NCBI GenBank assembly: GCA_003669055.1
Contig: RAYB01000013.1
Span: 1 to 64,000 of the forward strand
Reading direction: 5' to 3'
Length of the DNA: 64,000 nucleotides
Source of the DNA: a bacterium 1XD21-70
GTDB taxonomy: Bacteria; Bacillota; Clostridia; Lachnospirales; Lachnospiraceae
Below the pieces are notes generated by a model that ran no database searches, was not told the DNA's origin, and saw only the letters and a program-made list of their open reading frames with translations. The number at the start of each line of letters is the position of its first letter. The first letter of the stretch is position 1. Of this stretch, positions 21,702-31,021 are shown one piece after another. Made by a program: the position numbers and the translations under genes.

Positions 21702-21725
21702 GATATTCTTCGCACATCAAATCCT

Positions 21726-21829
21726 CTTATTGCTCGATTTCTCGCTCAGGTTGGCACCTTCCCAACGCGTGTCCGTTCGGGGTTGCCGTGACTTCACAGA
21801 TCCTTTGTATCTCCATCACTCTGAATAAG
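21726..21829 (-). promoter_or_regulatory. SAM-I riboswitch (S-box) aptamer
   Basis: Read on the minus strand, the P1 strands CTTATT (21824-21829) and AATAAG (21726-21731) enclose the S-box consensus elements in order: CAGAG-GATGGAG, GGATCTGTGAAGTCACGGCAACC, GGAAGGTGC-CAA and GAGCGA. When SAM is bound, the following terminator forms and metK is shut off. The aptamer is followed after about 25 bases by the terminator hairpin. Confidence 0.93.
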
Positions 21830-21870
21830 GGATTACGCACTTTTCAATTGTTGTTGTTTGTTACAGGTTT

Positions 21871-22034: not shown

Positions 22035-23603
22035 CTAAAAAGCCTTATCCGGCAGCCTCATCATCTCCTCATCTTCCCCGGAGTCCCCTGCCGCCGCAAT
22101 CTCTGGCAGGGCAATCCCCAGCCACTTACAGATCATCTCCACCCCCTTCGCCTTTGTCGCCTCCGCAGACACCAGCTGCAGGCAGCGCCCCTCCAAAATC
22201 CAGCGGACCTTCTTTTGGCACCCTGGTTCCAGGGCATTTTTCATCCGTTCTGCCTCTTGGGGCGTCCACGGCCTCCTCTCCGGGCGGATAAATGTCAGCT
22301 TATAAAGCATTTCCCCATGCCGGTAGGACAAAATCCGGAAGCCAAGTTCCCTCTGCAGTGCTTCCAAACAGGCAAGGCCGCCGCATTCCAGCCTGTAATA
22401 ATACTCGTTTTCCCTTCCCCCACACTCCACATGAACATGTGCTCCCCCGGCAAAAACCCCGCCGCAAAAAAGCTGCGCAGCCGTGCGGCAGCATCTCCTG
22501 GCCTCCTTTTCCGGCAGCGTCGTCGCCCAGAAAAGAAGTGCCCCCTCCTTCACAAGCGCCTCCAGTGCCTGCCGCATCTCTCCCCCCGGCAAAAGCCCGC
22601 TTCCTCCCGGCAGCATCCGCGCCTGCCCGCCCCCTATATCCTCCGGCACCAGCGTCCCCACAATATCCAAAAACACAGCCTTCGGCCGCCTTGGAATACG
22701 GAAAACCGGATACGGGCCAAACATCACCGCATTCATCCTATCTGCCCTGCCCCCATATGCCAGATAGCAAAAGCATTGCTTCCTCCCGCATATCAGTGGT
22801 GTTCCCCTGTCCGCGCTTTGTTCCTCCCAGGATCCCCCCTGCCCTCCCACCGCCTTGCCTTGCACTGCGGCTTGGGGATGATACCAGTTTTCTGCCGTCA
22901 CCCGGCTGATGTTACAGAGCCTCATCCTTCCGTCACTCTCGACAAAAACCCTCCCACGGCATTGCCTTTCATCTGCCGACGGCAGCGCCAATTCCCTCCA
23001 AAAATACGGATCCAGTTCCAGGAATGCCTCCCTTTCCTCTTTGGTATACTCCCTTTTCAGGCCGTCCATCCGGTTTACCCACAGATAAATATCCTCCGGC
23101 AGCAATCCCTTAAGCCTTTGTATCAGGCCGATATTCCCCGGAACCCCCACTGCCCCCACGCAGAGCACGATCCCAGCCTCCCTCACCTGGCGGCATTTCC
23201 CTGCAAAACGCTCCGGCGAAACCATCTCGGGGTGAAACGTTGCCCACAAACGCAGCTTCTCCACCCTCCCCCCGGCTTTCCCAAACCGTTCCAATGACTC
23301 CCCCAGCGGAAAACTTAAGTTTGTCTGTGCCCCAACCGCATCCATCTGCCCCAACCGGCTTAACGCCGCCAGCCCCTCCCAATACCAGGGATGGATCAGC
23401 GCCTCCCCATACGGCACCACCATCAGCGCCCGGAAATCTCCCGGAGCCTTCCCCGCTGCAATGCTCTCCGTGAAACGAAACCACGCCTCCTGATCCCGTT
23501 CCAACTCCCTCTTGGAACTTTGGTGCTTGGAAAACGGGCAATAGCCGCAGTGGTAATTACAGCTTTTCAGGCTCCCCCGGTACAAAACCGCCCCTTGGTT
23601 CAT
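22035..23603 (-). CDS. STM4011-family radical SAM protein fused to a HAD-like domain
   Basis: A 522-residue protein. The N-terminal part has the radical SAM CxxxCxxC (Cys 15, 19, 22; CNYHCGYC) in a barrel of about 220 residues. Further Cys follow (CRGRVFVESDGRMRLC and CGRKQCFC), which look like ligands of an auxiliary Fe-S cluster. From about residue 310 a HAD phosphatase-like domain begins with AVFLDIVGTL (nucleophile Asp, but Val where the second Asp usually sits) and ends with AAGDSGEDEEMM, the acidic motif of Cof-type HADs. I recognise the N-terminal half as the family named after Salmonella STM4011. Reaction unknown. It overlaps the STM4012-like gene by 47 bases and is last in the operon. 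Confidence 0.8.
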   Translation of the reverse strand: MNQGAVLYRGSLKSCNYHCGYCPFSKHQSSKRELERDQEAWFRFTESIAAGKAPGDFRALMVVPYGEALIHPWYWEGLAALSRLGQMDAVGAQTNLSFPLGESLERFGKAGGRVEKLRLWATFHPEMVSPERFAGKCRQVREAGIVLCVGAVGVPGNIGLIQRLKGLLPEDIYLWVNRMDGLKREYTKEEREAFLELDPYFWRELALPSADERQCRGRVFVESDGRMRLCNISRVTAENWYHPQAAVQGKAVGGQGGSWEEQSADRGTPLICGRKQCFCYLAYGGRADRMNAVMFGPYPVFRIPRRPKAVFLDIVGTLVPEDIGGGQARMLPGGSGLLPGGEMRQALEALVKEGALLFWATTLPEKEARRCCRTAAQLFCGGVFAGGAHVHVECGGRENEYYYRLECGGLACLEALQRELGFRILSYRHGEMLYKLTFIRPERRPWTPQEAERMKNALEPGCQKKVRWILEGRCLQLVSAEATKAKGVEMICKWLGIALPEIAAAGDSGEDEEMMRLPDKAF

Positions 23604-25017
23604 ACACAGCCTCCCATTCCTTCATCTTCCTTTGGATCTTTGCAGAAGCCAGCATCGGCCCCAGATAGTCAGAAAGCCCCATTCCCTCCTCCGTCAAAGC
23701 CAAAAACTCCTGGCTTCCTTCCGGTTTTTGTCCATCCCCCGGCCGCATCCCGCCTGCTGTTTGGCTATCCTCTTCCGTCCGCAGCCATCCCTCCCCTATC
23801 CACTTCTCCAATACCGGAAAATCACTGCACACCGGGGCGCCGAACAGCTCCTCATACCTTCCCAGGGCAATTCCCGGCCGGATCAGCAAATGGCGGATCA
23901 CATACCGCCGCTTCTGCTCCTCCTCCGACAGCAATATCCCATGCTGTACAGCCGAAAAATCCTCTGTCGCCTCAAACCGCCGCAGCTGTTTTAGGCATCC
24001 CTCCTGCGTCACGGCATAGGGGGTGCAAAAATGCAGCCTCCCCACATAGCTTCTTCCGCCGCACCCTAACGCCAGCGAAGTCCCGAAGCCGCACTCGGCA
24101 AACCTCCTTCTGATTCCTGTCCCCTTCTTCCCTGTGTCCCGCTGCCCTTCCTCCCGGCACCCTGGCGCCCGATGCCCGTTTTCCTTTCTCTGCTCCCGCA
24201 CAAACCGCCGCATCGAATCCTGCCGGAAGCCCTCTGACCGCAGATACCCCGACATCTCCTGGTACTGCCGGTATGCATAATCCGGATCCGGCACCACCCC
24301 TTCCCGAACCAAAGCGGCGCCATGCTTCACATAAAGGGGATACAAAAAGATCTCATCCACCCCAAAACCAATGGCCTCCCGCAGCGATTCCTGCAAGGAA
24401 TCCACGGTCTGCCCCGGGATGCCGTAAATAAAATCCACATTGACACAGCCAAAGCCCACGGACATCAGCAATTCCAGCGCTTCCCTCGCCCGCGACGCCC
24501 GGTGCCCCCGCCTCAAAGCCCTCAGTTCCTCATCAATAAAACTCTGGATCCCCATACTGACCCGAAAAACCCCTGCCCCCTTCAAAAATTCCAGTTTCCT
24601 CCGCTCTGTCTGGTTCGGTGCCGTCTCAATCCCAATCTCCGCACCATCCTCCAGCACAAAACAATCCCTCACCACCCCAAACATCCGTTCCAGCTGCCCC
24701 ATGGGCAGCAAAAGCGGCGTGCCGCCCCCGATAGTGAATTCCGAAAATTCTGTCCTATAAGGCTTTAGGATTTCCTGGTACTGCCGTCCCTGACGCTCTA
24801 CTGCATCCAGATACCGCCCCATGGCATCCGGATCCTGGCCGGTGACCGAAAACAGATTGCAGTACCCACATTTTCCCTGGCAAAAAGGCACATGGATATA
24901 TAGACCATGCCCTTTTCCCTCCAGCTGCCCTGCATAATCGCGCAAAGAAATCCCCTCCAGCGGACGGTAGGCCGTCTTGTGGGGATAGCTATACATATAC
25001 TGCACATAAGGATCCAT
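23557..25017 (-). CDS. STM4012-family radical SAM protein (HemN-like)
   Basis: A 486-residue protein of the HemN/HemW class. IHVPFCQGKCGYCNLF holds the CxxxCxxC of the [4Fe-4S] cluster, followed by TIGGGTPLLL and the SMGIQSF and DFIYGIPGQT segments of the SAM-binding barrel. It also has a C-terminal winged-helix-like part (YVIRHLLIRPGI). Two hydrophilic insertions (around residues 275-305 and 425-445) look like low-complexity linkers. HemN-like proteins include porphyrin decarboxylases, heme chaperones and C-methyltransferases. Context, not sequence, argues against heme synthesis, because no heme genes are near. It lies 13 bases after the hydrolase gene. Confidence 0.85.
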   Translation of the reverse strand: MDPYVQYMYSYPHKTAYRPLEGISLRDYAGQLEGKGHGLYIHVPFCQGKCGYCNLFSVTGQDPDAMGRYLDAVERQGRQYQEILKPYRTEFSEFTIGGGTPLLLPMGQLERMFGVVRDCFVLEDGAEIGIETAPNQTERRKLEFLKGAGVFRVSMGIQSFIDEELRALRRGHRASRAREALELLMSVGFGCVNVDFIYGIPGQTVDSLQESLREAIGFGVDEIFLYPLYVKHGAALVREGVVPDPDYAYRQYQEMSGYLRSEGFRQDSMRRFVREQRKENGHRAPGCREEGQRDTGKKGTGIRRRFAECGFGTSLALGCGGRSYVGRLHFCTPYAVTQEGCLKQLRRFEATEDFSAVQHGILLSEEEQKRRYVIRHLLIRPGIALGRYEELFGAPVCSDFPVLEKWIGEGWLRTEEDSQTAGGMRPGDGQKPEGSQEFLALTEEGMGLSDYLGPMLASAKIQRKMKEWEAVYEPRGGFVPGEPEKL

Positions 25018-25030
25018 ACCAAAAACCTCG

Positions 25031-25909
25031 CTAAATGAAAAAATGCTTATAGGGAACCGTATTCACTGCCGGATGGTCGATCCCATGGAACTGGCAGCCG
25101 TCCTCCCCATAACAAGTCCCATGGTCTGAGCAGCAGACCACAAAACCGCCGCCCCGCACCTGCTTCCATCCGTCAAGCAGCCGCCCCAGCTGCCCGTCCA
25201 CATACCGCAGCGCCGCCCGGTGGCTTTCCAGGCTGTCATTCTCTGCCCCGTCCAGATAGAAGTAATTCGGATAATGGATGGCATCCACATTCAGATAAAG
25301 AAAAATCCGCCTCCCCGGCTCTGCACCGGCAATCCGTTTCAGAATAAAATCCACTTGGTTTGCTGTGCTCTCCTTCACCGGACAGGCAAAAGACGGATTC
25401 CAGTAACTCTTCTGAAAATATCCCGGGAACACCTTGCCCAGGTCTGTGCGCTTATCAAAAAAGGACACGCCTCCCACGCACCAAGTATCATACCCTTCCT
25501 TTTCCAGCCCCTCCATAATGGTGCTGCCCGAAAATGCAAACGCACCCTCCGGCGGCTTCCTCCCCATGCCGATCTGCCGGGGAAAAAACAGCATCTCCCG
25601 GTCCGCCAGGCTCTTCGCCCCGGACGGGCAGGGCAAAAACCCTGCAAACATCGCATGGTGGGAAGGATAAGTAAAATTCCCCGGCGCCTGCCGCCTCTCC
25701 CAGGATCCATACCGGTTCAGCACCGGCGTATTTCCCGCTTTCTCCTCCTGTATGGCCGCATCATACCGCAGCGTATCCAAGCAAAGAAACAAGATATCCT
25801 GCTCCCCCACCACTTGGCCCATATCCACCGAAGAAGTTCTATGCCCCTTGGCGGAAAAAAACAGCCGGAACGGAACTTCCCCTGCTATCCCCTGCCCATT
25901 TTGCCCCAT
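25031..25909 (-). CDS. STM4013/SEN3800-family hydrolase (alkaline phosphatase superfamily)
   Basis: A 292-residue metal-dependent hydrolase-like protein. LFLCLDTLRYDA gives the first metal Asp and the Thr nucleophile. PGNFTYPSHHAMFAGFLP, NVDAIHYPNYFY, CSDHGTCYGEDG and HGIDHPAVNTVPY supply the other expected metal ligands of the sulfatase/phosphatase fold. No signal peptide is seen, so it should act in the cytoplasm. The ATG at 25909 follows AGGAGGGAGAGAG and is preferred over 25927. Substrate unknown. Between it and the upstream small gene is a hairpin, so it may need read-through or its own promoter. Confidence 0.82.
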   Translation of the reverse strand: MGQNGQGIAGEVPFRLFFSAKGHRTSSVDMGQVVGEQDILFLCLDTLRYDAAIQEEKAGNTPVLNRYGSWERRQAPGNFTYPSHHAMFAGFLPCPSGAKSLADREMLFFPRQIGMGRKPPEGAFAFSGSTIMEGLEKEGYDTWCVGGVSFFDKRTDLGKVFPGYFQKSYWNPSFACPVKESTANQVDFILKRIAGAEPGRRIFLYLNVDAIHYPNYFYLDGAENDSLESHRAALRYVDGQLGRLLDGWKQVRGGGFVVCCSDHGTCYGEDGCQFHGIDHPAVNTVPYKHFFI

Positions 25910-26040
25910 CTCTCTCCCTCCTGGCATTCCCTGCCTGCCTTTTTAAATCAGCCGCTCCTCTAGCCGGCTTTTCTTCCGGCCAGCTGCCCTTTTGGCTGGC
26001 TTTTCTTCCGGCTGCCATCTTCCCGGCCCCTTAAATGAAA

Positions 26041-26063
26041 GGCCAGGATATCTCCTCCTGGCC
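26041..26063 (-). terminator. hairpin after the 32-aa membrane peptide gene
   Basis: Minus-strand GGCCAGGA and TCCTGGCC form an 8-bp stem with a 7-base loop, followed by TTTCATTT. It could end or attenuate transcription before the hydrolase gene. Between it and 25909 the sequence CCGGAAGAAAAGCC occurs twice in direct repeat. Confidence 0.6.
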
Positions 26064-26071
26064 TTGGCCGG

Positions 26072-26170
26072 CTATTTCTTTTTCTTCTTTTTGATAGCCG
26101 AAATGATCACGATTGCTGCCACCACGAAAAACGCAATATCCAACACTATTTTTATGGTTTCATAATCCAT
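26072..26170 (-). CDS. 32-aa single-span membrane peptide inside the STM4011-4015 cluster
   Basis: The minus-strand ATG at 26168-26170 follows GGGAGGGG by 8 bases and opens a 32-codon frame ending TAG at 26072. The peptide begins MDYETIKIVLDIAFF, continues with a hydrophobic stretch to about residue 26 and ends in six Lys. This is one membrane span with a strongly positive, inside-facing tail. A good promoter (TTGAAA, 17 bases, TAAAAT) precedes it and a hairpin follows it. I do not recognise a family. It could be a membrane tether or regulator for the neighbouring enzymes or an unrelated small protein. It lacks a typical leader/core peptide layout. Confidence 0.7.
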   Translation of the reverse strand: MDYETIKIVLDIAFFVVAAIVIISAIKKKKKK

Positions 26171-26225
26171 GGCTGATTCCCCTCCCTTTTTATTTTTAGC
26201 AACAGGCTACCGTTGCTTTTCGTCC

Positions 26226-26254
26226 ATTTTATATCAGAATTCACTGATTTTCAA
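26226..26254 (-). promoter_or_regulatory. promoter of the 32-aa peptide gene
   Basis: Minus-strand TTGAAA (26249-26254), 17-base spacer, TAAAAT (26226-26231). A small hairpin (AGCAAC/GTTGCT, 26199-26216) lies in the leader. It may also drive the hydrolase and radical SAM genes by read-through. Confidence 0.65.
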
Positions 26255-26298
26255 GTAAAAATCCGGTCTCATCACCCTAATATTCCGGCACGGTATTT

Positions 26299-27351
26299 TC
26301 ATAAGATATCCCTTCCGGGCAAAGGGGCACACGCCGCTGCCATCATCTCTGCCTGCCTCCGGTAAATCACATTCTCCCCATAGATATCCTGGTAAATCAG
26401 ATCCCCTTGGGCGTTCATCTCAATAATCCTTGGTTTGAGGCTGCCCCTTTCCAGCAGAATATCAATCCCTGCGCTCCTAAGCCCCGGAAAGCATCCCACC
26501 GCACGGCGGCACAGGCTTTTCATTTCCTCCGCCACCGCCTGTGATAGGCCCAGTTCTTTTAATTCCAGCGGATGGTTATTCAAATGCAGGTTCGTGATCG
26601 GCCCCTTGGACAGCCTGGCCAGGCAAAAATCCATCTGCCCGTCCTGCACCACTGCCCTCAGGTCATAAGAATACCCCTGGTATTCTGCCTTGGCATACCA
26701 CCGTTCCACAATGCATCCCAGCTTTAAAAGCCTTTCCACCAGGGAAAGCACCTGGCTGGAATCTGTGACCCGGCGCAGCTGTTTTGTGTTGACCAGCCCT
26801 CCCGGTGCTTTCCTGTCACCCTCTCCCGGTGCCTCCCATGCACACGTATACAGTACCATCTGCCCCGATCTCGGCTGCCACCGAAACGCTGCCACGCCTG
26901 CTGCCCCTGAGCCCCAGGCCGGCTTGAGGAACACCTGGGTAACACGCCGCGCCTGCATGGCCTCCAGCAGCTGCCTTACATCCCCAGCCTCCCCCAGTTC
27001 CTCTGTCACTGCAACGCCCCCGGCCACCAGCCTTGCCTTACAGGCCGGTTTGTCCATCAGCATCCCAATTGCCCCCGGCTCATTGAGAAATTCCACCCCC
27101 TGCGCCGCTTTCATCCGCTCCAGTTCTGCCAACTGCTCCCGGTATCCTCCAACCAGTTCCCAAAGCTGCCCCAGCGCGCAGCTGTCCCACACCGGCGGGT
27201 CAATCTTTAAGAAAACCTCTCCCTGGGGAAAATCCTCCCTCCACCTGCGCCAATCCAAAAACAGGACATGCAGCCCGGCTTCCCGTGCTGCACGCCCCAG
27301 GTAATGAGTCCGTTTGGTACCCGGATTCCCCAAAAGTACTGCCTGCTTCAT
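26299..27351 (-). CDS. STM4014-family ATP-grasp protein
   Basis: A 350-residue protein with an ATP-grasp layout. An N-terminal Rossmann-like part (AVLLGNPGTKRTHYLGRAA) is followed by NEPGAIGMLMDKPACKARL and the ATP-binding VFLKPAWGSGAAGVAAFRW. RPRIIEMNAQGDL-like residues near the end give the Mg-binding Glu and Asn. ATP-grasp enzymes activate a carboxylate as acyl phosphate and join it to an amine or thiol. Substrate unknown. Its ATG overlaps the stop of the LRR gene (ATGA), so the two are translationally coupled. Confidence 0.8.
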   Translation of the reverse strand: MKQAVLLGNPGTKRTHYLGRAAREAGLHVLFLDWRRWREDFPQGEVFLKIDPPVWDSCALGQLWELVGGYREQLAELERMKAAQGVEFLNEPGAIGMLMDKPACKARLVAGGVAVTEELGEAGDVRQLLEAMQARRVTQVFLKPAWGSGAAGVAAFRWQPRSGQMVLYTCAWEAPGEGDRKAPGGLVNTKQLRRVTDSSQVLSLVERLLKLGCIVERWYAKAEYQGYSYDLRAVVQDGQMDFCLARLSKGPITNLHLNNHPLELKELGLSQAVAEEMKSLCRRAVGCFPGLRSAGIDILLERGSLKPRIIEMNAQGDLIYQDIYGENVIYRRQAEMMAAACAPLPGRDIL

Positions 27352-28202
27352 TCCGTCAGCATGGCGTACATATAAACCTCGCCGCGGTAATTGTCCGGCT
27401 TGTTTTTCTCAGAGGCATCCACCTCAACCGAAAGTGCCTCCAGTTTTTTCACCATCTCATCCGACATGAAATGGTAATGGACATCCAGCTTCTCAATGTT
27501 GCCGTATTGGGGAAGCTTATTCAGCAGCAGTTCCCCTCCCTTATCCGACAACGTCCCACAGGACAAATCAAGCGTCTGGATCTGCCCCATGAACTTGCTC
27601 TCCAGCACAACCGCTGTCAGTTCATCCTGGATCTCACTGTCCGCAATCCCCAGGTACTCCAGCTGCGGAAGCTGTACCTTCTCCAAAAAGCCCCGGATCG
27701 TATCCGCATTCCCGTCAAAGCCATAATTATCGCTCCCCATATAAAGCAGCAGCTTTTTCAGTTTTGGAAGCCTGGCTTTCTCAATCTCCTCAATCACCCC
27801 GGTCGGCAGCCCCCCGCAGATAATCGTCAGCGCCTCCAAATTCTCATGGCAGACCTCCCCCAGTGCAAGATCCGTACTTCCCTTAATGGTCAGTTCCCTC
27901 AGATTCGGCAATGCCGCCCACAGCTTGCCATAGTTCCCCTGGATAATCCAGGAAACCTCACACTCCTCAAAATCCATGTCGCCGATGAACAGCTTCTCAA
28001 TATGTGCAAACTGGCCGGCACTCTCAACAATCCCGTCTATGATCGGCTGGCAGCCCTCCTCATATGCACTTCCCCAGTTCCCGACCACCAGTTCTGTCAG
28101 GCTGGGAAAATCCGGATCCGCCAGGATATCCCCCACCATCGTGGACGGCCCTTTCCCAGCCTCATACTCGTCATAATCATAAGAATATGTTTTCATTACC
28201 AT
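27348..28202 (-). CDS. STM4015-family leucine-rich-repeat protein
   Basis: A 284-residue protein with successive leucine-rich repeats (FPSLTELVVGNW, LPNLRELTIKGSTD, NLEALTIICGG, LPKLKKLLLYMGS, LPQLEYLGIADS, IQTLDLSCGTL), a fold used for protein or ligand binding. No catalytic motif is seen. The ATG at 28202 is preferred because AGAGGGG lies 9 bases upstream. A TTG at 28232 is less likely. It begins 39 bases after the phosphoribosyltransferase gene and overlaps the ATP-grasp gene. It probably acts as a scaffold for the enzymes of this operon, by inference only. Confidence 0.8.
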   Translation of the reverse strand: MVMKTYSYDYDEYEAGKGPSTMVGDILADPDFPSLTELVVGNWGSAYEEGCQPIIDGIVESAGQFAHIEKLFIGDMDFEECEVSWIIQGNYGKLWAALPNLRELTIKGSTDLALGEVCHENLEALTIICGGLPTGVIEEIEKARLPKLKKLLLYMGSDNYGFDGNADTIRGFLEKVQLPQLEYLGIADSEIQDELTAVVLESKFMGQIQTLDLSCGTLSDKGGELLLNKLPQYGNIEKLDVHYHFMSDEMVKKLEALSVEVDASEKNKPDNYRGEVYMYAMLTE

Positions 28203-28241
28203 GCTTTTAATCCCCTCTTCCTGTTCCCTCAAAATATACGC

Positions 28242-28880
28242 TTATATCTTTGAATACCCATATGCGTTCACCAGGGCATCCAATTTCTGGCCTTGCCTGC
28301 ACAGCGGGCACTCCCGGTAGTCATAGTCCAGATAATCCGGCAGGTCCTTCTTCCCGAATACCGCATGCACCGGCACACCGCCGACTTCATGCACGGCACT
28401 GAAAACCGCAGAAACCCCCTGGATCTTGCCGCCGTAATACTGGACACTTTCAATTGCCTTCATCACAGAAAACCCTGTGGTCACTGTGGCCATCAGGATA
28501 ATCACATGCTTATCCTTAATCATCGGTGCTGTGTTGTCCCGGAAAATGATCTGGCTGTTGTTATTAAACTCCGGCCGGACTATGTAGATTGTCTTATGCA
28601 TATTTTTGGAAAGCACTCCGCTCCTGGTCAGTTCTTCCGATAAAAACGCCCCTATCACCTCTGTGCCTTCCATGCAAACAATCGTGTCAACCACCAAGCC
28701 ATACAAGTAAGTACCCATCATCCCCTTCGCCACATCCTGTGCCTCGCTGGCCCTGGTCTTTAAGGTCGTCATATCCAGATAATAATTGATATGAGAATGA
28801 TTGGTCGCAAAATGCCCCGGTGTCACCTTTAAAGCTGCGTTCGTCCCTGCTGTATGGATCTTCGTATACCTGGTCTCCAT
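28242..28880 (-). CDS. phosphoribosyltransferase (orotate-PRTase-like)
   Basis: A 212-residue protein of the type I phosphoribosyltransferase fold, often annotated as orotate phosphoribosyltransferase in clostridia. KDKHVIILMATVTTGFSVMKAIE is the PRPP-binding region, with Met-Ala in place of the usual acidic pair, so PRPP chemistry is uncertain. The C-terminus carries a CPLC motif (YRECPLCRQG), not usual in PyrE, which might bind zinc. AAAGGGGG lies 6 bases before the ATG at 28880. The longer frame to 28952 covers the promoter. First gene before the STM4015-4014 pair and probably co-transcribed. Confidence 0.72.
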   Translation of the reverse strand: METRYTKIHTAGTNAALKVTPGHFATNHSHINYYLDMTTLKTRASEAQDVAKGMMGTYLYGLVVDTIVCMEGTEVIGAFLSEELTRSGVLSKNMHKTIYIVRPEFNNNSQIIFRDNTAPMIKDKHVIILMATVTTGFSVMKAIESVQYYGGKIQGVSAVFSAVHEVGGVPVHAVFGKKDLPDYLDYDYRECPLCRQGQKLDALVNAYGYSKI

Positions 28881-29170: not shown

Positions 29171-29509
29171 CTACAGCTTTGCCTTATAAAACGTCCTTTT
29201 TTCAGCTGGAATATCCATTGCCGCCATTGCCTGTTCGGCACTCCACTTCATATTAGCCATCAGATTTTTAATCGCCTCCAGAAGTGTCTCCTGCCCCTCT
29301 TTCCGTCCTTCTTCCCGTCCTTCTTTCCGTCCTTCTTCCCGTCCTTCTTTCCGTCCCTCTTCCCGTCCCTCTTCCCGTCCTTCTGCTCTCCCTTCTTCCA
29401 ACCCCTTTTCTCTCCCTTCAGTCCTCCCTTCCTCCAACCCTTCCTTTCTCGCTCTGTCTTTCTCCTCGGCAATTTCTTCTTTCATCAGGTTCCTTAGCGC
29501 ATCACACAT
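29171..29509 (-). pseudogene. C-terminal part of an Rpn/PD-(D/E)XK nuclease gene, cut off by IS110
   Basis: The 112-residue frame reads MCDALRNLMKEEIAEEKDR, then a charged array of GREEGRKEG repeats, then the tail IKNLMANMKWSAEQAMAAM...KRTFYKAKL. This is the usual C-terminal end of lachnospiral Rpn-family nuclease/transposase-like proteins. Codons just upstream (RRGSE) continue in frame to the IS end at about 29524. The missing N-terminal part is the fragment at 31126-31806 beyond the IS. A good AGGAGGGG sits 7 bases before its ATG, so the fragment might still be translated. Rpn proteins are DNA endonucleases that promote recombination. Confidence 0.75.
29296..29395. repeat. 12-bp tandem repeats coding for GREEGRKEG
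   Basis: About eight copies of a 12-base unit (CCTTCTTTCCGT and variants) run through the Rpn C-terminal frame and encode the four-residue EEGR/KEGR repeat. The in-frame length keeps the reading frame. Copy number is likely to vary between strains. Confidence 0.8.
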
Positions 29510-29524
29510 CTCCGATCCCCTCCT

Positions 29525-29803
29525 ACTACAATATATTATGGTTAATATCCCTTACAGCCAGTAAGGAATTACCCATCTTGTTGCTTAAGCTGTTAGAATG
29601 TAGAGAGCAATCGGTATATCGGATTCCTCCTTGGACTTCGCGTCCGTAAATAAGTCTGATAACCAGCTCCTCATTCGCAGCATTCGTTTTATGCAGGTTG
29701 AACCACCTTTAAGGTGCGTCCGCGTCACACCACAGTAGATTGAATAGGCAATGAGTAAAACTGGTGCCTACCATTGCATACCAAAGATAGGAGTGACACA
29801 ATT
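29525..29803 (+). ncRNA. candidate IS110 bridge RNA region
   Basis: IS110 elements related to IS621 are known to encode a structured bridge RNA in the non-coding end before the recombinase gene. This stretch is non-coding and holds several small hairpins, for example GGACTTCGCGTCC near 29634 and CACCTTTAAGGTG near 29710. It also has the pair GGCAATG near 29751 and CATTGC near 29772. Which loops match target and donor cannot be settled by eye. RNA ends are not defined. Confidence 0.5.
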
Positions 29804-31021
29804 ATGAATATGAACGCAGTCGGTATTGATATTTCCAAACGAAAAAGCATGGTGTCCATCCTCCGCCCTGGCGGGGAAGTCGTGGCTAAACCTTTTGAAA
29901 TCTCTCATCTGTCCGGTGATGTCCAGTCACTGATTGATCGGATTCACGCTCTTGATGGAGAATCCCGTATCGTTATGGAATGTACCGGTCGATACCATGA
30001 ACCCATTGCCCGTGAGCTTGTGGCAGCCGGGCTCTTTGTAAGCGCCATTAATCCCCAGCTGATACACGACTACCAGGATGGAGACAGCTCCCTCCGTAAA
30101 GTGAAGTCGGACAAAGCTGATTCCCTCAAAATTGCACGATACACTCTTGACAGATGGGAAAAACTAAAACAATATGGTCTTATGGATGAAATACGCAATC
30201 AATTAAAGACCATGAACCGACAGTTTGATTTCTACATGAAGCATAAGACTGCCATGAAAAACAACCTGATCGCTCTCCTTGACCAGTCATATCCAGGAGC
30301 GAACACCTACTTTGACAGCCCCGCCCGTGAAGATGGCAGCCAGAAATGGGTCGACTTCACTGCTACATACTGGCATGTGGACTGTGTCCGTAAGATGTCC
30401 CTGAATGCCTTTGTTGAGCATTATCAGAAATGGTGCCGCCGCAAGAAGTACAACTTCAGCAGAGCAAAAGCTGAAGAAATCCATGGAACAGCCAAGGAAC
30501 TGGTTCCTGTACTTCCAAAAGATGGCTTTACCAAACAAATCCTCAAGCGGGCAACTGAACAATTATATGCTGTTTCCAAGACCGTTGAACAGCTCCGCAC
30601 CCTCATGAACGAAACAGCCGCCACACTGCCAGAATATTCCGTCGTCATGGCCATGAAAGGCGTTGGACCGTCTCTCGGTCCTCAATTGATGGCTGAAATT
30701 GGAGATGTTGCACGTTTTACCCATAGGAATGCGATTACAGCATTTGCCGGTGTCGATCCTGGCGTCAATGAATCAGGCGATTACTCCCAGAAAAGCGTCC
30801 ATGCATCGAAACATGGTTCTCCCGTGCTTCGTAAGACCTTGTTCCAGATCATGGATGTCCTGATTAAGACAAAGCCTCAGGACGACCCCGTGTACTTATT
30901 CATGGATAAGAAACGAGCGCAAGGGAAACCTTACTATGTCTACATGACTGCCGGGGCCAATAAGTTTCTCCGCATTTACTACGGTAGAGTTAAAGAATAT
31001 TTGGCTTCACTTCCGCAATAA
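29804..31021 (+). CDS. IS110-family transposase (DEDD recombinase)
   Basis: The 405-residue product has the N-terminal RuvC-like DEDD domain (GIDISKRKS, MECTGRYHEP, SDKADSLKIARY) and the C-terminal transposase_20 part (MKGVGPSLGPQLMAEIGD, ITAFAGVDPGVNESG, ASKHGSPVLRKTL) with the Ser recombinase-like residue region. It catalyses RNA-guided insertion at short core sites. The ATG at 29804 with AGGAG 10 bases upstream fits better than the ATG at 29774. Complete and apparently intact. Base composition is more AT-rich than its surroundings. Confidence 0.95.
   Translation: MNMNAVGIDISKRKSMVSILRPGGEVVAKPFEISHLSGDVQSLIDRIHALDGESRIVMECTGRYHEPIARELVAAGLFVSAINPQLIHDYQDGDSSLRKVKSDKADSLKIARYTLDRWEKLKQYGLMDEIRNQLKTMNRQFDFYMKHKTAMKNNLIALLDQSYPGANTYFDSPAREDGSQKWVDFTATYWHVDCVRKMSLNAFVEHYQKWCRRKKYNFSRAKAEEIHGTAKELVPVLPKDGFTKQILKRATEQLYAVSKTVEQLRTLMNETAATLPEYSVVMAMKGVGPSLGPQLMAEIGDVARFTHRNAITAFAGVDPGVNESGDYSQKSVHASKHGSPVLRKTLFQIMDVLIKTKPQDDPVYLFMDKKRAQGKPYYVYMTAGANKFLRIYYGRVKEYLASLPQ

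Follow-up and report, generated by a model that had tools for sequence, protein, structure and literature searches.

In the amino-group carrier systems, the ligases LysX and ArgX load an amine onto the C-terminal Glu of the carrier proteins LysW or ArgW, whose acidic tail reads EDWGE, and Glu54 of ArgW is required for arginine synthesis (passages of PMC10433800 and PMC9303977); ArgX is said to recognise EDWGE through a GSWGR motif (a passage of PMC10433800). Chemistry at the C-terminus of a carrier peptide is also described for the pearlins (TglA and others), some of which involve radical S-adenosylmethionine (SAM) enzymes and which use PEARL aminoacyl-tRNA ligases and a protease (passages of PMC9303977). 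In the graspetides an enzyme of the ATP-grasp fold, PsnB, acts on acidic peptide side chains, and other ribosomally synthesized and post-translationally modified peptides (RiPPs) have a SPASM maturase. Here we analyse an operon in a stretch of 64,000 nucleotides (the window) from the Lachnospiraceae bacterium 1XD21-70 (contig RAYB01000013.1; genome of 4.3 Mb in 137 contigs), whose five genes belong to families that NCBIfam lists by name only, STM4011 to STM4015, three of the models being typed hypothetical equivalogs. What is new here is the invariant C-terminal Glu of STM4015, a leucine-rich repeat (LRR) protein; the families themselves were already named and are widespread. On balance, we think it probable that STM4011-4015 form a protein-tethered modification pathway acting on the C-terminal tail of STM4015.

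STM4014 has an ATP-grasp fold that most resembles those of LysX and ArgX, the complex of ArgX with LysW (3VPB) being its top Foldseek match, with PsnB, Ddl and RimK close behind. Like LysW, STM4015 ends in Glu, with a tail that is acidic on average, if not in every member, and that differs in motif from EDWGE. However, ArgW is a small zinc protein of 54 residues, whereas STM4015 is an LRR protein of about 285 residues that is not homologous to LysW. Where the LysW/ArgW carrier pathways have their LysZ/Y/J/K steps, the operon has two radical SAM enzymes and a hydrolase of the alkaline phosphatase type. Neither the PEARL ligases nor the protease of the pearlins is among the STM4011-4015 families. 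PsnB is among the top matches of STM4014, but STM4015 differs from the graspetides in being a folded LRR protein and in having no conserved Thr, Ser or Lys partner at positions -8 to -2; the main text of a graspetide survey (PMC8939145) does not mention LRR, leucine or STM40. With the SPASM maturases STM4011 shares auxiliary-cluster cysteines, having a CX3CX2C motif and five further invariant Cys. A literature search, which covered few subscription papers and no preprints, found no function in print for STM4011-4015: STM4013.S is listed among sigma54 sites (PMC3844500), STM4015 is tabulated with other Salmonella genes in a selection scan (PMC2784778), and the passages concerned give no function.

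The C-terminal glutamate of STM4015

The STM4015 gene of the window lies at 27348-28202 on the minus strand, and its product scores 329.0 bits against NF038076 (cut-off 275). The open reading frame (ORF) is open from a TTG at 28232, the ATG at 28202 being the likelier start. Its last eight residues, YMYAMLTE, are encoded at 27351-27374 (minus strand), with the C-terminal Glu specified by GAA at 27351-27353. The first sign of constraint was an alignment of 14 STM4015 proteins in which the single invariant residue was the very last one. An earlier count in a smaller set found Glu at the end of 95 of 95 distinct proteins, and the set enlarged with actinomycete, further Deinococcus and Calothrix members gave 110 of 110 distinct members with a complete 3' end. 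ORFs cut 3' by a contig end and phmmer matches below 60 bits are omitted from this count; some N-terminally cut proteins are taken in, and 16 later members were picked from hidden Markov model (HMM) matches. Representatives of identity clusters below 80, 60, 50 and 40% all end in Glu (91/91, 33/33, 18/18 and 9/9, respectively), as do four additional new members. Each of the 110 proteins has the terminus [LVIYMF][TSGA]E together with an aromatic residue at -6 or -8. When the same script was applied to the other families, the last residue was found to be variable, the commonest one accounting for 11 of 82 STM4011, 26 of 84 STM4012, 52 of 89 STM4013 and 13 of 88 STM4014 proteins. A 660-residue LRR protein that falls below the family cut-off and outside the tail count (L188) also ends in Glu.

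The invariance is not an effect of gene overlap, since both GAA and GAG are used for the terminal Glu and 58 of 95 3' ends are other than ATGA, GTGA or TTGA. Most of the fetched operons have a single STM4015 gene; two or three are present in L064, L116, L120, L121, L131, L157, L159 and L161, and copies away from the operon were found in Streptomyces, Embleya and on a Calothrix plasmid (L162, L163, L164, L165). All of these proteins end in Glu. None of the other operon genes was found within the 10 kb searched around the Calothrix plasmid copy.

Between the last LRR motif and the C-terminus lie 30 to 51 residues, while the end itself stays fixed. Asp and Glu together average 5.9 over the 14 positions that precede the tail, as against 0.6 for Lys and Arg, and the poorest member has no Asp or Glu. 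Thr occupies -2 in 89 of the 110 tails and Gly or Ala in 12. Thr, Ser and Lys are all absent from -8 to -2 in 9 of 110, so no cross-link partner is conserved in that segment; within the last 22 residues at least one of the three is present in 107 proteins and missing in 3.

The AlphaFold2 (AF2) model of STM4015 has a mean predicted local distance difference test score (pLDDT) of 94.8, and its best PDB match (Foldseek) is 2RA8. This Bacteroides fragilis protein (Q64V53) is itself an STM4015 member, and its match ends ...YPMITE. The Glu of 2RA8 is not chain-terminal, because the match stops at residue 354 of a chain of 362 residues.

The enzymes encoded with STM4015

STM4014 (26299-27351, minus strand; NF038074, 330.6 bits, cut-off 175) is an ATP-grasp ligase whose start shares four nucleotides (ATGA) with the STM4015 stop. 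In the profile search 1UC8 ranked first ('lysine biosynthesis enzyme', E 1.6e-5), the best chains being 1UC8/1UC9 and 3VPD (LysX). The AF2 model (mean pLDDT 91.7), which was made of STM4014 alone and not of the natural STM4014-STM4013 fusion of L084, was compared with 350,542 chains using Foldseek. ArgX with LysW (3VPB) came out on top (E 2.5e-15; template modelling scores 0.61/0.74), followed by PsnB with its precursor, LysX/ArgX with LysW-gamma-AAA (5K2M), Ddl and RimK. Against rimK_fam the protein scores 16.8 bits (cut-off 143.4). The HMMER alignment pairs the GS of a KPxxGS loop in STM4014 with a GS of 1UC8, which suggests that this loop may occupy the same place as the GSWGR motif of ArgX. 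The STM4014 and STM4013 profiles show no relation to each other.

In the HemN-like radical SAM enzyme STM4012 (23557-25017, minus strand; NF006067, 471.3 bits, cut-off 380) the CX3CX2C motif is invariant in 12 of 12 proteins, and the best PDB relatives are HemN (1OLT, E 2.5e-27) and the methyltransferase NocN (9P2U). The radical SAM domain of STM4011 (22692-23603, minus strand; NF038073, 276.2 bits, cut-off 200) has eight invariant cysteines (11/11 and 27/27), namely C15, C19 and C22 of the CX3CX2C motif plus C215, C230, C272, C277 and C279, the latter five spaced CX14C and CX4CXC. Only one PDB entry matches it at E <= 0.01, that of the RiPP maturase SkfB (E 0.0028), and Pfam SPASM is matched by one homologue with 18.3 bits, below the cut-off of 21.5. 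The auxiliary cysteines thus look SPASM-like (or twitch-like).

The STM4013 hydrolase (25031-25927, minus strand; NF038075, 384.2 bits, cut-off 250) belongs to the alkaline-phosphatase/NPP superfamily. Two ATG codons are available to it, at 25927 and at 25909, the latter preceded by a Shine-Dalgarno-like stretch. It scores 37.2 bits against Pfam Sulfatase (cut-off 25), and its profile matches are NPP-type phosphodiesterases, sulfatases and phosphoethanolamine transferases. Residues D16, T51, N178, H183, D209, D233, H234, H246 and H250 (counted from MGQVVGEQ) are the same in all 92 proteins compared. Since these comprise the candidates for nucleophile and metal ligands, STM4013 looks catalytically intact, with Thr as its nucleophile. 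Sulfatases carry the formylglycine motif (C/S)-X-(P/A)-X-R; STM4013 does not, having instead an invariant Thr in FT[YW]..H (92/92), and a sulfatase function was rejected.

In the window the STM4011 ORF continues into a HAD-type domain (22035-22691, minus strand), which is matched by Pfam Hydrolase_3 over residues 449-516 (28.8 bits, cut-off 20.9) and by HAD-IIB with 26.4 bits, below the cut-off of 41.8. The earlier note on this DNA regarded the domain as an addition made here, but it is fused to STM4011 in 55 of 86 STM4011-bearing loci; in Salmonella it is a separate gene, the next one, and in 30 loci it was not found.

Linkage, distribution and neighbours of the operon

The minus strand at 22035-28232 encodes STM4015, STM4014, STM4013, STM4012 and STM4011, adjacent and in this order, each scoring above its curated NCBIfam cut-off, as the earlier note had proposed from family names. 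Neighbouring genes overlap or almost touch; the one exception is a gap of 371 bases that separates STM4014 from STM4013. In a phylum sample of 249 genomes, STM4014 and STM4015 exceeded their cut-offs in the same six; in a family sample the two did so in the same 9 of 397 genomes, and STM4013 exceeded its cut-off in 3 of 150 family genomes. Scanning genome contigs for STM4013 gave at least 581 confirmed relatives, of which we used the best 80 loci by similarity to the window protein. All five families are present in 69 of these 80 and the exact order 4015-4014-4013-4012-4011 in 66. The scores and the recurrence of the same five families in the 69 loci mean that the assignment is not due to chance. 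Of the 11 incomplete loci eight are short or lie at a contig end, and L093, L098 and L119 have full flanks and no adjacent partners. Genome G381 keeps all five genes although they are split over three contigs (4013-4012-4011; 4014; 4015). L084 has a natural 4014-4013 fusion, as read from its sequence, and single long ORFs in L116 and L118 suggest 4013-4012 fusions. The gap between STM4013 and STM4012 is about 1.1-1.2 kb in L082/L054 and L076 and about 6 kb in L095. The earlier note had treated the genes as one unit with an unassigned product and had seen rare co-occurrence of their homologues as a threat to that view; the five genes do co-occur.

Members of the operon were seen in Clostridia, Paenibacillus, Bacteroides, Salmonella, Deinococcus, Methylobacterium and actinomycetes. 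By record titles most of the best 80 loci are from Clostridia or Paenibacillus, a leaning that follows from their ranking by similarity to the window protein, and they lend no support to the view that a complete set in a Gram-positive genome is remarkable. The nearest STM4013 relative among the fetched loci is on a Lachnospiraceae contig (85% identity). In an STM4013 tree of 45 rows, built by a quick method from a chosen subset of loci with 16 sequences left out, Salmonella and Bacteroidota fall inside an otherwise clostridial clade and Methylobacterium groups with Deinococcus; several branches of these cross-phylum groupings are long and not all are starred. This placement makes transfer between phyla likely, in keeping with the patchy distribution and with the mobile pathway suggested by the first inspection. 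At megablast sensitivity, none of 5,426 Escherichia coli genomes covered 80% of the Salmonella operon; partial matches occurred in 94, and the eight listed fell in a HAD gene. On a Bacteroides finegoldii plasmid (L062) the operon is decayed, with a fragment of STM4013, no detected STM4012 and an intact STM4015 tail. An IMG/VR contig filed as viral (L147) carries all five genes, nearest to the Bacteroides copies, and could be either host DNA or a mobile element.

Two further genes that the earlier note had drawn into the pathway do not appear to belong to it. A phosphoribosyltransferase-like gene directly upstream of the operon (28242-28880, minus strand, ATG at 28880) resembles orotate phosphoribosyltransferases weakly, below their cut-offs; besides the window it was found only in L067, a close relative, among 95 sources searched, and we set it aside as lineage-specific. 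A 32-residue membrane-peptide-like ORF between STM4014 and STM4013 (26072-26170, minus strand), ending KKKKKK, has no convincing match outside the window genome among the loci compared, and was rejected as a RiPP precursor for lack of conservation there.

Outside the five families, neighbour clusters reach at most 18 of 95 loci by the clustering used. Seven loci of Paenibacillus (L135-L138, L140, L143, L146) have a gene of the APS-kinase family that adjoins the end of STM4011 or overlaps with it, the L138 protein scoring 191.3 bits against Pfam APS_kinase; this gene is possibly a hint at the substrate. Beside the operon in six annotated plasmid regions, which are from Deinococcus, Methylobacterium and Streptomyces (L064, L065, L066, L159, L160, L161), are a DUF6745 protein and a protein of about 100 residues; the latter has the motifs GE(V/L)TGH and H(E/D)EH and in each of the six ends in Asp. 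Neither protein appears in the feature tables for the regions of Salmonella, Bacteroides and Paenibacillus, and both were rejected as core genes. DUF6745 of Deinococcus and Methylobacterium shows LRR-like repeats by eye. A 398-residue gene, by eye of a further ATP-grasp type, lies 3' of STM4011 on the same strand within 200 nucleotides in L123 and two other loci. In the window, metK is downstream of the operon with a SAM riboswitch in front (21724-21831, minus strand; Rfam RF00162, 62 bits), and just upstream of the operon are a protein with EGREEG/EGRKEG repeats (29171-29509, minus strand) and a 415-residue ORF (29774-31021, plus strand), which looks like an IS110-type transposase.

Probable chemistry on the STM4015 tail and the alternatives

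Three members of one unit point to chemistry on the STM4015 tail: a ligase resembling enzymes that charge protein tails, an LRR protein with an invariant Glu at its end, and a SPASM-like radical SAM enzyme. The LRR protein had been proposed as a binding scaffold; its LRR identity stands, while the invariant Glu and the LysX/ArgX-like ligase suggest that STM4015 is itself the substrate or carrier and not a mere scaffold. We envisage that the folded LRR domain would be the recognition handle and the Glu-ending tail the site of chemical work. STM4014, being of the ArgX/LysX/PsnB/RimK type, would phosphorylate a carboxylate of the terminal Glu and join an amine to it, as LysX and ArgX do on LysW; in the amino-group carrier systems it is the gamma-carboxylate that takes the amine. 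STM4011 (SPASM-like) and STM4012 (HemN/NocN-like) could then act on the attached group or on the aromatic residue just ahead of the Glu, and STM4013, with the HAD domain where present, might remove or transfer a phosphate-type group. The adduct would be either released, making STM4015 a carrier, or kept as a permanent modification. The families, their linkage, the invariant tail, the ligase resemblance and the STM4013 active-site residues were observed; the Glu as ligation site, the substrates, the order of steps and the fate of the adduct are what we infer. The reading is a well-supported hypothesis, short of demonstrated function.

Several observations weigh against it. STM4014 is only 14-18% identical to the listed ArgX/LysX chains, and Ddl and RimK follow closely (E 6e-12 to 2e-11), so its ATP-grasp likeness leaves the acceptor unfixed. 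The AF2 model does not show a disordered tail: the mean pLDDT is 90 over residues 281-290 and 81 over 291-294, and short strands are present. The tail may therefore lie against the LRR body, and the Glu might have a structural role. Motif I of a HAD phosphatase is expected to hold a second Asp. It is missing in the window (DIVGT) and in 16 of 37 readable fused proteins, the window included (54 long proteins were scanned and the motif was unread in 17), which makes phosphatase activity doubtful in such proteins, as if it were being lost in some lineages. No release peptidase or amidase was recognised in the printed neighbour clusters, which were inspected by eye and are mostly unannotated, with the small ones unread. 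Genes of a MATE-type cluster, of which the one member scanned matches Pfam MatE, were found at 14 of 95 loci; in seven of these (L072, L068, L125, L108, L062, L128, L129) the gene lies within 240 nucleotides of the operon, on the same strand in six of the seven. Finally, permanent modification, a sub-case of tail chemistry, accounts for several STM4015 copies at least as well as a recycling carrier does.

Were the modification permanent, the modified LRR protein would be the product with nothing released, and one enzyme set would equip LRR proteins that differ in their surfaces with an identical tail group or cofactor made by radical chemistry. Operons with several divergent STM4015 proteins, copies elsewhere with the same type of tail, and the failure to recognise a release peptidase are consistent with this. 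Nevertheless, we regard it as a possibility of the weaker sort: most fetched operons have a single STM4015, the MATE genes could mean an exported product in some lineages, and the phosphatase-type enzymes fit a small-molecule route more easily. If, instead, the LRR protein only provides a docking scaffold and its tail serves as a short linear motif, or as a structural cap, for binding one of the enzymes, the substrate would be a small molecule that is never tethered. C-terminal carboxylate motifs can act as docking ligands, the tail is predicted to be partly ordered, and the APS-kinase-family gene of seven Paenibacillus loci would suit a small phosphorylated or sulfated substrate. We judge an exceptionless terminal Glu over diverged bodies to be stricter than most docking motifs, however, and STM4014 resembles ligases that act on protein tails, which makes docking rather unlikely. 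The PsnB complexes among the top structural matches of STM4014 and the Thr at -2 in most tails would suit a graspetide-like cross-link, in which STM4014 would link the last residue of the tail to the side chain of a Thr, Ser or Lys within it. The tails with Gly or Ala at -2, and those with no such residue at -8 to -2, make it improbable, even though a longer loop could reach one within the last 22 residues of nearly every protein. Least probable by far is a branch of heme or porphyrin metabolism through STM4012. The homology to HemN is clear, but the HemN-like fold is also found in methyltransferases such as NocN, and STM4012 is a family of its own, above its own cut-off and below those of HemN (132.1 bits, cut-off 324.95), HemW (150.1 bits, cut-off 205.4), HutW and HemZ; the known heme pathway, named in the earlier note as a possible home for these enzymes, was rejected on these cut-offs.

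If the tail of STM4015 is where the chemistry takes place, the operon may, as we tentatively propose, represent a new class of protein-tethered biosynthesis, in which the LRR protein is a giant leader or carrier whose Glu bears a group ligated by the ATP-grasp enzyme and modified by the radical SAM enzymes, and in which, in some lineages, one enzyme set serves both operon-borne and stand-alone LRR proteins with a common tail cofactor or tag. In practical terms C-terminal tags are inadvisable on STM4015, and the solved 2RA8 structure has its Glu inside the chain. STM4015 made alone in E. coli is probably unmodified, since none of the E. coli genomes searched carries 80% or more of the Salmonella operon at megablast sensitivity. 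The invariant Glu narrows the problem of five enzymes with an unknown product to whether the LRR protein gains mass at its last residue. Should it do so, a folded repeat protein would join the short list of non-thioester carrier proteins.

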